Assembly: GCF_029029505.1 (NCBI RefSeq)
Contig: NZ_JAKJSD010000015.1
Location: forward strand, 1-64,000
Length of the DNA: 64,000 nucleotides
DNA from: Ancylomarina sp. DW003
GTDB lineage: Bacteria > Bacteroidota > Bacteroidia > Bacteroidales > Marinifilaceae
Direction: 5' to 3'
The notes beneath the pieces are model-generated. The model saw only the letters and a list, made by a program, of their open reading frames with translations. It searched no databases and was not told the DNA's origin. A program made the translations under genes and the position numbers. Of the stretch, positions 12,092 to 25,428 are shown piece by piece (positions within the stretch are counted from its first letter, which is position 1; every line of letters starts with the position of its first letter).

Positions 12092-12663
12092 TCAGTCCCA
12101 ACCGTTTGTAAATAAACCTTACAATTATTAGCGATTATCACGAGTTAAATGTTATATACCATAACAATAACATCCTAAATAAATTGGCGCTTCGCCCAAC
12201 CGAGCTTGCGAGCTCATGAGCTTTACGAATAAACCAGACTTCATTTTTTAGCTTGATCCAAAAAACGAAGCAAAAAAAATCAAGGCTACTTTTTAAATAT
12301 CTTTCTTATTAGCTCATAAGTGTCTTCTCTATAGGGCATTCATGATTTCCGCTACGCTCCAATGTGCCTCATGCTTAAGTGCGGCCGGGTGATTTCCTCG
12401 ACAAGCTCGGATGTTGACTTCGTCGATTTCGCAAACTCAATTCCCGGTTTTACTAATCATCCATTGGGTTTATAAGATCTCTTAAATCAATGTTCAATGA
12501 TTACAGTTATAAAAAACAGTGTGATCTAACAAATAGTACTTCACCCACTACATTCGGCATAGAGCCATAAATCTCATGTCCAGAATCTGATATCTCACAA
12601 TTTATTATTCTAAAGTACCCTTAAAAACTTATAAAGAACTAGCAGGCTTACTCTCACCTTCTA
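12092..12663. other. Non-coding stretch rich in short hairpins
   Basis: About 570 bp with no credible gene. It contains small perfect hairpins: GGCG-ctt-CGCC (12186-12196), GAGCT-tgcg-AGCTC (12202-12215), and ends AGCTTGAT/ATCAAGGCT that can pair across 12250-12287. Around 12340-12460 the sequence is clearly richer in G+C than the surrounding intergenic DNA and contains phrases such as GACTTCGTCGA. It resembles a patchwork of extragenic palindromic repeats. The TamB terminator may be one of these hairpins, but none has a convincing T-run. Confidence 0.5.
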
Positions 12664-12824
12664 TACCTATTTAATTTCAAAATGAGCTTTAATTAAAATG
12701 GAATAGTTTTTAGCTAGATCAAGACAAAAAAGCAAGAGATAGCAGAGTTACCTCGCATCTTTTTTAACGAAGATATAGCTGAAAAGAACCATTTTATAAG
12801 ATTGGTTTTGATGTTAATTTGGTA
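12664..12824 (+). repeat. 161-bp MITE-like dispersed repeat, copy A
   Basis: This stretch is repeated in inverted orientation at 24601-24761. Aligned by eye, the two copies are the same length, need no gaps and differ at about 21 of 161 positions. Each begins TACC and ends GGTA, and the ends form imperfect terminal inverted repeats of ~50 bp, so it looks like a miniature inverted-repeat element with no coding capacity. Its right edge touches the stop codon of the thioredoxin-like gene (12825-12827). The base after GGTA is followed by TTA; the left flank is CTA. Confidence 0.85.
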
Positions 12825-13334
12825 TTATCTTAAGATCTCAAGTAAATCAGCTTCGAGGCTCACTTTAGGTGTTTCTATAATTCGCCCCAATTCTTCTTTC
12901 CCCCTATAAATGATAAGGGTTGGCACCCGTTTAACATCGATAGCTTTTACATCAATATCAGGTGCTTGTTTGTTGGTATCCATGGCAAAAATCTCTAAAC
13001 CCGACATAGGAAATTTCACCGCTTTTAGCAACTTAATCATTCTTGGTACTTGCATATGACTATCGTGGCACCAAGTTCCCAAAACAAGGGTCATTTTAAG
13101 CCCTGATAGATCCTTTTTCTTCAATTGCGAAAGAATATCCACATCAACTTTATAGTCTTTAAATTCCGGCTTAAACCAATCAGAACAAAGTGTGTCATTT
13201 AAGCCATCAAGAGTCACTTTTCCAAATAAAATAGAACGCCTAATACGATCATCAACTTTAGTTTGATTTATATCTTGAGATTTAGCACTCACAGATAGTA
13301 AAATTATAACAAGAGCTAAAATTAGAGTTTTCAT
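12825..13334 (-). CDS. Thioredoxin-like family secreted protein
   Basis: A 169-residue exported protein with a thioredoxin-like fold. The chosen ATG at 13334 gives a typical signal peptide (MKTLILALVIILLSVSAKSQ); the longer reading frame adds 34 unlikely residues and would run through a terminator hairpin. The active-site region reads GTWCHDSHMQVPR, a CxxS variant, followed by the cis-proline strand RVPTLIIYR. Only one cysteine remains in the motif, so a classical dithiol-disulfide exchange is unlikely; related Bacteroidota thioredoxin-like proteins often carry a WCxDS motif. Function unknown, periplasmic or outer-membrane side. The stop codon abuts the 161-bp repeat. Confidence 0.75.
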   Translation of the reverse strand: MKTLILALVIILLSVSAKSQDINQTKVDDRIRRSILFGKVTLDGLNDTLCSDWFKPEFKDYKVDVDILSQLKKKDLSGLKMTLVLGTWCHDSHMQVPRMIKLLKAVKFPMSGLEIFAMDTNKQAPDIDVKAIDVKRVPTLIIYRGKEELGRIIETPKVSLEADLLEILR

Positions 13335-13389
13335 TTTGAGAATTTTAATTATCAGTAATTGGTCGACTGCAAGATAATTAATTCCATAA

Positions 13390-13421
13390 AAAAAACCTGC
13401 CAGAAAACTAGCAGGTTTAAA
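13390..13421 (-). terminator. Rho-independent terminator of the lipoprotein gene
   Basis: On the minus strand a stem AACCTGCTAG/TGGCAGGTT-type hairpin is followed by a run of eight T, just downstream of the lipoprotein gene at 13437. A near-copy of this terminator lies at 14424-14453. Confidence 0.85.
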
Positions 13422-13436
13422 ATATTCACATTTCAA

Positions 13437-22783: not shown

Positions 22784-24445
22784 CTACACCTTAGTCAGTT
22801 CTATCTGAATTTTAGATTCTCGTTCCAACAATAGAGTTTCTGACGGAGAATCACAAACCTCACTAGGTCCAAAGTATTGAATTGGTCCTGGGTAGATATA
22901 ATCTGTATTCGTAGCCCACTCTTTCCTTTTAGAACGGAAGGTTAAAAAAGGATTACCTTTCAGATCAACCAAAGCTTTTTGAATCACAGGTTTCATATGT
23001 CCATGACGTTTTTCCATATTCATCATCATGGTAATTGGTACGCCACCAGCTAGCCATTGATCTGAACTTTGTGATGTATTTTTAATAAAAGCCATATAGC
23101 CTGTCCTTCCGGAATTGATTAACAAAGCAGCCGTATACCCTAGAGAATAACAATAGTCTGCATCGAAATTCGACGGAGCTGCACAACGTCCCTCATAGCC
23201 AAAGAAATGGTTTTGTGCATTAAATTTACCATGGAATGATTTATCTTTGGCCAATCGGTCTGCCACCATATCAATCAAAAGCTTCTCTGTTTCGATTTTA
23301 GATACCTGAACATTACCATGCGGATCTCTATCCAAAGTTAGCTGCTTCGCAAATGAAGCCGGGAGGCTTGAATAAACTTTTGCAGATTCCTCACTCAAGA
23401 GTTCAGTAATAAAATTTCTTTTTTCCTGACTGGTTGTTAATTCATAATATTCTGTCTTAGTAGCCAGAATATCATTTAGCTCAGATATTAATTTTTTAAT
23501 TGAAGGCATAAACTCAACCAAGCCTTCTGGAATAAGAACGGTTCCAAAGTTTTCACCATTATTTGCTCGCTTTTTTACGATCTCAGCAATCTGGCCAACA
23601 ATCTTATTTAAGGTCAGTTTATATTTCTCAATCTCTTCTGAGATAATAGCAATATTCGGTTGTGTTTTAAGTGCACACTCAAGACTAATATGAGATGCTG
23701 AACGGCCCATTAGTTTAATAAAGTGCCAATATTTTTTTGCAGAATTTGCATCTCTCTGAATATTACCAATCAGCTCGCTATATACTTTACAAGCCGTATC
23801 AAAACCAAAAGATGTTTCAATAAAATCATTTTTTAAATCCCCATCAATGGTTTTAGGACAGCCTATAACCTGAATTCCCGTTTTCTTTTCTTTGAAATAC
23901 TCAGCTAATACACAAGCATTAGTATTAGAATCATCACCTCCAACAATAACCAGGGCATTGATATTATTTTTTAGGCAATTCAAAATCACCTTATCATATG
24001 AAGCCTCATCTTCAATCTTTGTTCTACCAGAACCAATAATATCGAACCCACCTGTATTTCTATATTCGCTAACGATTGCGGAATCTAGTTCAATAAACGA
24101 ATTATTTAGCAAACCATCAGGACCACCAATAAAACCGAACAATTTACTTCGAGAATTTAGTTTTGTTAGTGCATCAAACAAACCTGAAATAACATTATGC
24201 CCTCCTGGTGCTTGTCCACCTGAAAGTACAACGCCGACATTTAAAATTTGATTATTGGCAGTATCTCCTGATTCAAAAGTCACCAAGGGCATACCATATG
24301 TATTAGGAAACATACTTTTTATCGCATCCTTGTCAGCGACAGCCTCACTTTCTTCGCCAATAATTAACTTGACATTTTCTTCTAATGATTTTGGTAATTT
24401 GGGAGTATACTTAGCTCTTGCCTTCTGCAACGGACTTTTAATCAT
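22784..24445 (-). CDS. pfp: Pyrophosphate-dependent phosphofructokinase
   Basis: A 553-residue cytosolic enzyme transferring phosphate from PPi to fructose 6-phosphate in a reversible glycolytic step. The long form (~550 residues) matches the plant beta-subunit-like bacterial PFPs. Motifs: SGGQAPGGHN near the N-terminus, GGDDSN (169-174) with the second Asp that blocks ATP use, and PKTIDGD (197-203) with the lysine typical of PPi enzymes. I chose the ATG at 24445; the longer frame begins with TTG and adds eight residues. A copy of the 161-bp repeat lies ~155 bp upstream. Confidence 0.94.
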   Translation of the reverse strand: MIKSPLQKARAKYTPKLPKSLEENVKLIIGEESEAVADKDAIKSMFPNTYGMPLVTFESGDTANNQILNVGVVLSGGQAPGGHNVISGLFDALTKLNSRSKLFGFIGGPDGLLNNSFIELDSAIVSEYRNTGGFDIIGSGRTKIEDEASYDKVILNCLKNNINALVIVGGDDSNTNACVLAEYFKEKKTGIQVIGCPKTIDGDLKNDFIETSFGFDTACKVYSELIGNIQRDANSAKKYWHFIKLMGRSASHISLECALKTQPNIAIISEEIEKYKLTLNKIVGQIAEIVKKRANNGENFGTVLIPEGLVEFMPSIKKLISELNDILATKTEYYELTTSQEKRNFITELLSEESAKVYSSLPASFAKQLTLDRDPHGNVQVSKIETEKLLIDMVADRLAKDKSFHGKFNAQNHFFGYEGRCAAPSNFDADYCYSLGYTAALLINSGRTGYMAFIKNTSQSSDQWLAGGVPITMMMNMEKRHGHMKPVIQKALVDLKGNPFLTFRSKRKEWATNTDYIYPGPIQYFGPSEVCDSPSETLLLERESKIQIELTKV

Positions 24446-24885
24446 TTTTCTGAAATTAATCTTTATCAAAAATGGTTGTAAATGTCTAAATATTTAAACT
24501 TAATAGCTCAAACACCTATTTCAAACGATTGCGGCAAATGTCGGCAAAATATATCTATCAGGCAAGATTTTACTAAACTGTTTAGTTACAAACCATGTTA
24601 TACCAAATTAAAATCAAAACCTATCTTATAAAATGTTTCTTTTTACCTATATCTTCGTTAAAAAAGATGCAAGGTAACTTGGCTATCTTTTACTTTTTTG
24701 CCTCGATATAGCTAAAAATCATTTCATCTTATTTAAAGATGATTTTGAAATTAAATTGGTATTAAAGCAAATTTGCAGATATAATTCCAGCTTTAGGCTA
24801 CTAATATTGGGGTACACAAAATCAATCTAAACTTCTTTAGATTAAGAAAACAAGTTGATAAGGTTAATCGAGGTTGATGCTTAGC
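24446..24885. other. Intergenic region holding repeat copy B
   Basis: About 440 bp between rimM and pfp. It holds the 161-bp repeat (24601-24761) and a small perfect hairpin ATCTAAA-cttc-TTTAGAT (24825-24842) that may end the rpsP-rimM transcript, although no strong T-run follows. The pfp promoter should be between the repeat and 24445; no clear TAnnTTTG box seen. Confidence 0.5.
24601..24761 (-). repeat. 161-bp MITE-like dispersed repeat, copy B
   Basis: Inverted partner of copy A at 12664-12824, same length and about 87% identical by hand alignment. It starts TACCAAATT and ends AATTGGTA. Its two arms (about 24601-24655 and 24705-24761) are imperfect inverted repeats. Both flanks read TTA immediately outside the element, consistent with a short target-site duplication or with TA-directed insertion. 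No reading frame. Confidence 0.87.
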
Positions 24886-25428
24886 TTAGTCTTCCAGGTA
24901 AAGATCGATTAAACCTTCCGGAGTTTCCATGATGATAGATTTTTCTTCCTCATTTATTTCAATGAAGTTCTCATCAGCAAATGGAATTAAGACTTCTTGC
25001 CCATTCAGTTCAAGAACCAATACAATATTGCCTGAATAATCCTGAATGTCTTCAATCGTTCCTATTTCGCCTCTTTCTTCATCAATATAGGAGAAACCAA
25101 TTAAAGCACTTGCTTCAATCTCTTCTTTATCTTCAAAATAGTCTGGAGCATCCTTAAAAGGAACATAAATTTCGCAACCAATAAATCGGGTTGCTTTTGC
25201 TTCGCTATCCATATCCTCGAGAAGAATACGAACCGTGGCATGGTTTCTTGGGGTTAAACCATTAGGGGTAATGAAAAAAGGAACCAGTCCTCCGTCGATA
25301 TCGACAAGGACTGATTCCAATTTATATTTTTCGAGAAGATCGCTAGATTTTTTTGCTACAAGTTCACCTTTTACTCCGTGAGTTTTGACGAAACTCCCTA
25401 CAAAAAAACAATCCTCCTTCTTAAACAT
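24886..25428 (-). CDS. rimM: Ribosome maturation factor RimM
   Basis: A 180-residue 16S rRNA processing factor that assists 30S maturation by binding ribosomal protein S19. The N-terminal barrel begins FVGSFVKTHGVKGELV; the C-terminal PRC-barrel contains IGTIEDIQDYSGNIVLVLE and LIPFADENFIEI, all typical of RimM. I chose the ATG at 25428 because the longer frame merely reads back through the rpsP C-terminal tail. It follows rpsP by 10 bp, the conserved rpsP-rimM pairing. Confidence 0.95.
   Translation of the reverse strand: MFKKEDCFFVGSFVKTHGVKGELVAKKSSDLLEKYKLESVLVDIDGGLVPFFITPNGLTPRNHATVRILLEDMDSEAKATRFIGCEIYVPFKDAPDYFEDKEEIEASALIGFSYIDEERGEIGTIEDIQDYSGNIVLVLELNGQEVLIPFADENFIEINEEEKSIIMETPEGLIDLYLED

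Follow-up and report, generated by a model that had tools for sequence, protein, structure and literature searches.

The 161-bp repeat that occurs twice in the window (the whole 64-kb stretch of Ancylomarina sp. DW003 DNA analysed here) is a MITE (a non-autonomous DNA transposon), whose family extends across at least three genera of marine Bacteroidales. The element is real, mobile and ordinary in kind; what is unusual is the strength of its strand-specific fold and the bias in its orientation. Our preferred explanation, to which we give a probability of roughly 0.7 as a whole, is that of a MITE with a conserved + strand hairpin that would be kept behind genes as a 3'-UTR structure, either tolerated or slightly useful. 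Its mobility is evident from terminal repeats, a 3-bp TTA/TAA duplication, dispersed copies and element-free sites in close relatives; covariation computed in silico shows that the predicted fold of the + strand was kept while the family diverged; and the surviving insertions lie, as a bias, behind genes and more often with the folding strand transcribed. That the hairpin plays the role given to it is, as we infer it, probable.

The two copies in the window are inverted relative to each other and align without gaps over 161 bp with 87% identity, i.e. about 21 differences (E = 7.8e-51 in a whole-genome search), both starting with TACC and ending with GGTA. The element is non-coding, since the longest stop-free stretch spans only 27-53 codons when the six frames of 58 full-length copies, out of 70 listed, are considered. 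On all these points the sequence bears out the earlier note, which had described two inverted, gap-free, non-coding copies with these ends and about 87% identity. The features of the window are the following:

12376 to 12568, - strand: 74% relative of a second repeat of about 290 bp, beside copy A
12661 to 12663, no strand: left target duplication of copy A, CTA, with one mismatch against TTA
12664 to 12824, + strand: element copy A, 161 bp, the better-folding strand being the + strand
12664 to 12683, + strand: left terminal inverted repeat of copy A (TACC...)
12726 to 12765, + strand: apical part of the predicted fold of copy A, made up of a stem of A-tract and U-tract and, on a 3-bp stem that covaries, the conserved UAGC-NNN-GUUA hairpin
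12805 to 12824, - strand: right terminal inverted repeat of copy A (...GGTA)
12825 to 12827, no strand: right target duplication of copy A, TTA, identical with the TAA stop codon that closes the minus-strand ORF 12825-13436
24598 to 24600, no strand: target duplication of copy B, TTA
24601 to 24761, - strand: element copy B, 161 bp, in the opposite orientation to copy A
24762 to 24764, no strand: target duplication of copy B, TTA

The terminal inverted repeats are imperfect, with TACCAATTTAATTTCAAAA at the left end and TACCAAATTAACATCAAAA at the right end (reversed), and can be summarized as TACCAAWTTAA... Outside the ends each side is flanked by TTA or TAA in the same direction. Among 47 independent loci with both ends aligned, the flanking 3-mers are identical in 27, inverted in 2 and otherwise different in 18; among the 70 listed copies, a list that includes a palindromic copy once for each strand, identical TWA 3-mers flank 44 and inverted ones 3, and after dropping loci L105-L144, which were found by their end pattern, identical 3-mers are still present in 37 of 62 copies. 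When duplication lengths of 1, 2, 3, 4, 5 and 6 are compared, flank identity occurs in 2, 2, 44, 1, 0 and 0 of the 70 copies, respectively. Inverted flanks would be expected of a palindromic target; those observed are direct. At the site of copy A the gene ends without the element in all four congeners (G001-G004), a comparison of 13 loci in which eight from other genera escaped the motif used and in which the sequence past the stop codon is too diverged for a base-by-base alignment of the empty site. The stretch that follows RimM at the site of copy B likewise lacks the element in the four congeners, and the adjoining stretch, which in the window genome reads TTTGTAACTAAACAGTTTAG, can be made out in each of them with at most 3 mismatches. 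Mapping of flanks and empty sites, which the earlier note had proposed as a check, thus yielded both 3-bp duplications and congeners free of the element at either window site, and its tentative reading as a MITE gains support from these data together with the terminal repeats and the multi-copy state.

The same duplication accounts for the contact of copy A with a stop codon. Copy A abuts the TAA of the minus-strand ORF 12825-13436 because the right duplication TTA is that very stop codon, and the gene stays whole because a stop codon hit by the insertion is duplicated. The contact itself was therefore correctly seen in the earlier note; its description of the gene as thioredoxin-like was not confirmed, the protein encoded by this ORF matching no Pfam family at E <= 0.001. 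The duplicated target is a stop codon in 6 of 66 copies, a count in which two of the six represent one site shared by two species and a palindromic copy enters the 66 twice, and candidate TWA sites outside ORFs coincide with one in 187 of 5699 cases (3.3%), about 2 being expected. A mechanism targeting stop codons was considered and rejected, since the excess of 6/66 over 3.3% is small and non-independent and, with TTA/TAA as the target, was judged to be near the chance level. The suggestion that copy A might serve as mRNA 3' end or stabiliser for the gene that it abuts gained no support: copy A is antisense to this gene, so that what is transcribed is the strand that folds less well; the choice of TTA as target already explains the contact; and no intrinsic terminator came out of a simple scan around either window copy. 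Copy B has RimM (ending at 24886) on one side and a phosphofructokinase-family ORF (22784-24469) on the other; both genes are encoded on the minus strand, and the better-folding strand of copy B is in sense to RimM.

A search of the own genome gave 12 matches that define ten element loci, two of them split by an insert of about 30 bp, and this refutes the possibility, left by the earlier note, that only two copies exist. Seven of the ten are near-complete (87-100%), one of 128 bp lacks the centre, and the two split loci carry their insert near element position 126; the window contains two of the ten. Querying 58 genomes with the element DNA produced matches in eight, own genome included, with copy counts that are lower bounds because 14 candidates per genome were scored; the element was found in two congeners, G003 and G004, and the other two of the four, G001 and G002, gave no match. 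In named genomes the core pattern was found in 53 stretches, 52 of which belong to Labilibaculum, Marinifilum, Ancylomarina and other Marinifilaceae; a stretch of Pricia antarctica (L101), matching over 40 bp only, was judged to be chance. Labilibaculum genomes hold up to 27 matches each, fragments counted, and a divergent type of about 158 bp, whose first members match at 70-74%, occurs in the genera g5 and g9 and in Marinifilum breve. The plasmids and phages searched gave no element match; the left-end pattern appeared in three viral contigs with no partner end, which was judged chance, and the right-end pattern in none. Among the matches listed from the open-access literature, no title or abstract describes this element.

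Several copies depart from the common form. The insert of about 30 bp, TACGGCTTTAGCCCTCTTGAGCTTGCGAATC, near position 126 is common to two Ancylomarina species (L008, L009 and the 490-bp forms of Ancylomarina euxinus). In four copies of the latter species (490-bp forms; L048, L049, L050) the second repeat, of about 290 bp, sits within the element, with near-identical A-rich 8-mer flanks and the ends GGTTCTATG.../...TATAGCAGC; this 8-bp duplication is suggestive of an ISL3-type MITE. The same repeat also has matches elsewhere in five of the ten genomes searched, each of them an Ancylomarina. Another insert, about 164 bp long, lies within the element at 7480-7804 of L074 (the same copy as L208, genome G066), with the ends GAAACTGTTTAAA/TTTAAACAGCTTC and TAA on each side, and is a third nested mini-element. 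Elements of 133-135 bp (L131, L134 and L140, in G066 and G026) combine the common ends with a different hairpin centre, CTTGTCATGCTCTGAC..., unrelated to the usual one, which looks like an exchange of ends and centres. The copy at 2814-2974 of L041 (G026) bears a right-type end on both sides and forms a near-perfect outer palindrome, which is consistent with exchange between the palindrome arms. At alignment column 78, the L. euxinus copy has C and its orthologs in other Labilibaculum T in five of the ten ortholog clusters that include this species, three others showing no difference, one the opposite and one not being comparable; C occurs in 18 of 25 L. euxinus rows, some loci appearing twice. 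This pattern suggests gene conversion between dispersed copies. Finally, one site holds in two species either the full element or a 41-bp remnant of both ends (L113 in G072 and L125 in G066), which is an internal deletion rather than a clean excision.

Our preferred reading would have a cut-and-paste transposase that recognises the TACCAAWTTAA ends moving the element in trans. A full-length transposase element sharing the ends, which the earlier note had advised looking for, did not turn up at the loci fetched for three Pfam families. Ends forming a convergent pair were absent from the 30 fetched of 34 matches to PF01609 (DDE_Tnp_1), which hit nine of ten genomes, and from all 3 matches to PF13586 (DDE_Tnp_1_2), which hit three of ten; PF13359 (DDE_Tnp_4) matched none of the ten genomes, and neither did PF07592 (ISAzo13), a profile also silent in all 14 controls. 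No pair enclosing a transposase was seen among the end matches listed. Three candidates were discarded: a 1756-bp pair of ends in L110, in which the large ORFs did not look like transposases by eye and the flanks are unequal; a shortened transposase ORF that in G004 (L175) adjoins a single end-like sequence where a contig stops, and that is not a partner; and, in G003 (L047/L156), a transposase fragment separated by about 800 bp from a truncated end that has no second end to match. The enzyme must therefore have been lost, be unassembled, or lie outside the Pfam families searched. The IS1031 group of the IS5 family makes a 3-bp TNA target duplication, of the same form as that of our element, and differs from it in the ends; in the ten genomes, PF01609, PF13359 and PF13586 retrieved no transposase with the same ends.

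The distribution of the copies relative to genes was assessed from 143 hits of at least 90 bp, of which 8 with short flanks were dropped and the remaining 135 merged into 72 loci, 71 of them having an ORF on each side. Convergent gaps hold 20 and divergent gaps 5 of these 71, against 453 and 878 candidate TWA sites, respectively (p = 3e-6), this background coming from 33 convergent and 40 divergent gaps of fetched loci of at least 5 kb and not from whole genomes. At the 46 independent loci with co-directional neighbours the + strand is the one read in 33 and the - strand in 13 (p = 0.0045), a bias that rests on ORF-based gene calls, that persists at ORF cut-offs from 60 to 150 aa and with full-length copies only (p = 0.002-0.007), and that is stronger before orthologous copies are merged (30 to 5 of 62). 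The convergent excess and the 33-to-13 split together place the elements behind genes, more often in sense, and this preference of the family for gene 3' ends and sense orientation makes an effect at the 3'-UTR plausible for the family.

Copy A is predicted to fold end to end, with z = -4.3 for the + strand and -3.2 for the - strand, and this whole-length hairpin supports the idea, also present in the earlier note, of a structured intergenic repeat. The + strand folds lower in 57 of 58 full-length copies and in all three sequence types, with a mean difference of 13.4 kcal/mol, although these are not 58 independent tests because the copies are related; it is also lower in three copies of the 133-135-bp type, which has another centre and only the ends in common. 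In an alignment of 33 copies, the 57 pairs of the model are formed in 94.1% of cells. Compensatory changes on both sides occur at 15 of the 57 pairs versus 9.6 in shuffled alignments (3 of 500 shuffles reach 15), and the covariation score of 0.171 compares with 0.094 (sd 0.005) after shuffling, where 0 of 500 are as high, and with at most 0.049 for slid structures, the latter comparison favouring the real structure since the model was derived from the folding of copy A and edited by hand. At those pairs where Watson-Crick combinations are in the majority, G-U accounts for 65 cells versus 17 for A-C. The 3-bp stem under the apical UAGC-NNN-GUUA hairpin varies by copy (GAG/CUC, AAG/CUU, GUC/GAC, AAC/GUU, GCC/GGU), its middle pair failing in 13 of 33 copies and the first pair above it in 7 of 33. 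Covariation alone is no proof of RNA function, because the arms of a palindrome can exchange and keep pairing. Clusters of orthologous copies, examined with 117 copies of at least 140 bp, show the same share of variable columns among the paired (77/114) and the unpaired (33/49), and G-U versus A-C changes of 27 to 17 (p = 0.17). The fold was thus kept while the family spread and not measurably after insertion; either only source copies are constrained, or the orthologous clusters are too young to tell.

How much of this demands a role for the RNA can be argued in several ways. A MITE with no function at the RNA level, whose palindrome would be nothing more than outsized transposase-binding ends and whose positional biases would reflect selection against insertions that hit promoters or carry harmful signals, has in our judgement somewhat less than an even chance of being the full account. 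It agrees with the target duplication and the sites that lack the element, with paired columns that are unconstrained after insertion, and with the avoidance of divergent regions expected of any intergenic insertion; however, taken alone it predicts neither a strand-specific fold with G-U pairs at differing places across divergent types nor the 33-to-13 split. At the other extreme, the element could be a mobile 3'-UTR module, the sense transcript being a conserved folded RNA with the apical UAGC-NNN-GUUA hairpin, kept mainly in sense behind genes because there the fold would serve to protect, process or end the upstream mRNA, so that each new insertion would bring a ready-made signal for RNA processing to another place in the genome. 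We consider this unlikely, at about one chance in four.

A little less probable still is that the folding strand is required for spread itself, the RNA or single-stranded DNA hairpin of a source element being recognised by the mobilising machinery, so that only active source copies would be constrained. Conservation of the structure between sub-families and not detectably after insertion is what it would lead one to see, and the 133-135-bp type, with its different centre, also forms a long hairpin; yet the fixed 3-bp duplications point to ordinary double-strand cut-and-paste, and no candidate machinery was found with four Pfam families in ten genomes. Two further readings are already disfavoured. 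The element is short, palindromic, intergenic and multi-copy, as would be a REP/REPIN-like palindrome spread by a RAYT (IS200-type tyrosine) transposase, but REPINs are not known to leave a target duplication and here there is one of 3 bp, which makes this origin very improbable. A vertically inherited structured RNA, such as a riboswitch-like leader or a small RNA gene, duplicated by chance, would have a covarying fold, and we regard it as slightly more improbable again: the copies are dispersed at unrelated loci with target duplications, the element is absent from the same sites in congeners, and no Rfam family reaches its gathering score in the window, where a permissive Rfam search gave for copy A only one weak match, to the pntA RNA, far below the cut-off and rejected.

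Returning to the MITE with a conserved + strand hairpin, its history after transposition can be pictured as follows. The element, an extended imperfect palindrome with the better RNA fold on its + strand, would arrive, insertions behind genes would tend to survive, more often with that strand transcribed, and, as a likely consequence, the transcript of the upstream gene would end in, or read through, a long hairpin, as for ERIC. A MITE explains the interspersed repeats of these genomes and the exact ending of copy A at a stop codon, and the family represents a measured case, among bacterial MITEs, of strand-specific fold conservation combined with a bias in orientation. Should transcripts bear this picture out, Bacteroidales would have a mobile mRNA-processing signal of the ERIC kind, and the cultured Labilibaculum species offer tens of natural insertions for comparison.

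The main text of a 2024 review of prokaryotic MITEs has, by term search, no words beginning with bacteroid, marinifil or flavobacter (PMC10969869). The nearest described Bacteroidales MITE that we found is BrickBuilt, which together with MITEPgRS is reported from Porphyromonas gingivalis as intergenic MITEs with predicted stem-loops; their ends match IS5-family elements (GAGACC...), whereas ours are TACCAA..., and, unlike them, our element duplicates a TWA 3-mer and is a single palindrome and not a minisatellite (PMC4596501). Closer in behaviour, by description, are two repeats of other bacteria. ERIC (IRU, RU-1), of 127 bp in enterobacteria, is presented as a small intergenic mobile repeat with TA at its ends, a target duplication and a long stem-loop transcript, whose orientation is said to be crucial for effects on the upstream mRNA in Yersinia (PMC2229807); our element, of 161 bp and from another host group, has in this respect a positional orientation bias only. 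The Correia or NEMIS repeats of Neisseria (107-155 bp) are likewise described as MITEs with terminal repeats and TA-containing ends, their stem-loop transcript being proposed to be cut by RNase III (PMC2229807); their hosts belong to a different phylum. By this comparison of descriptions, the Ancylomarina element would work most like ERIC or NEMIS, a likeness of behaviour by which we do not claim membership of either family.
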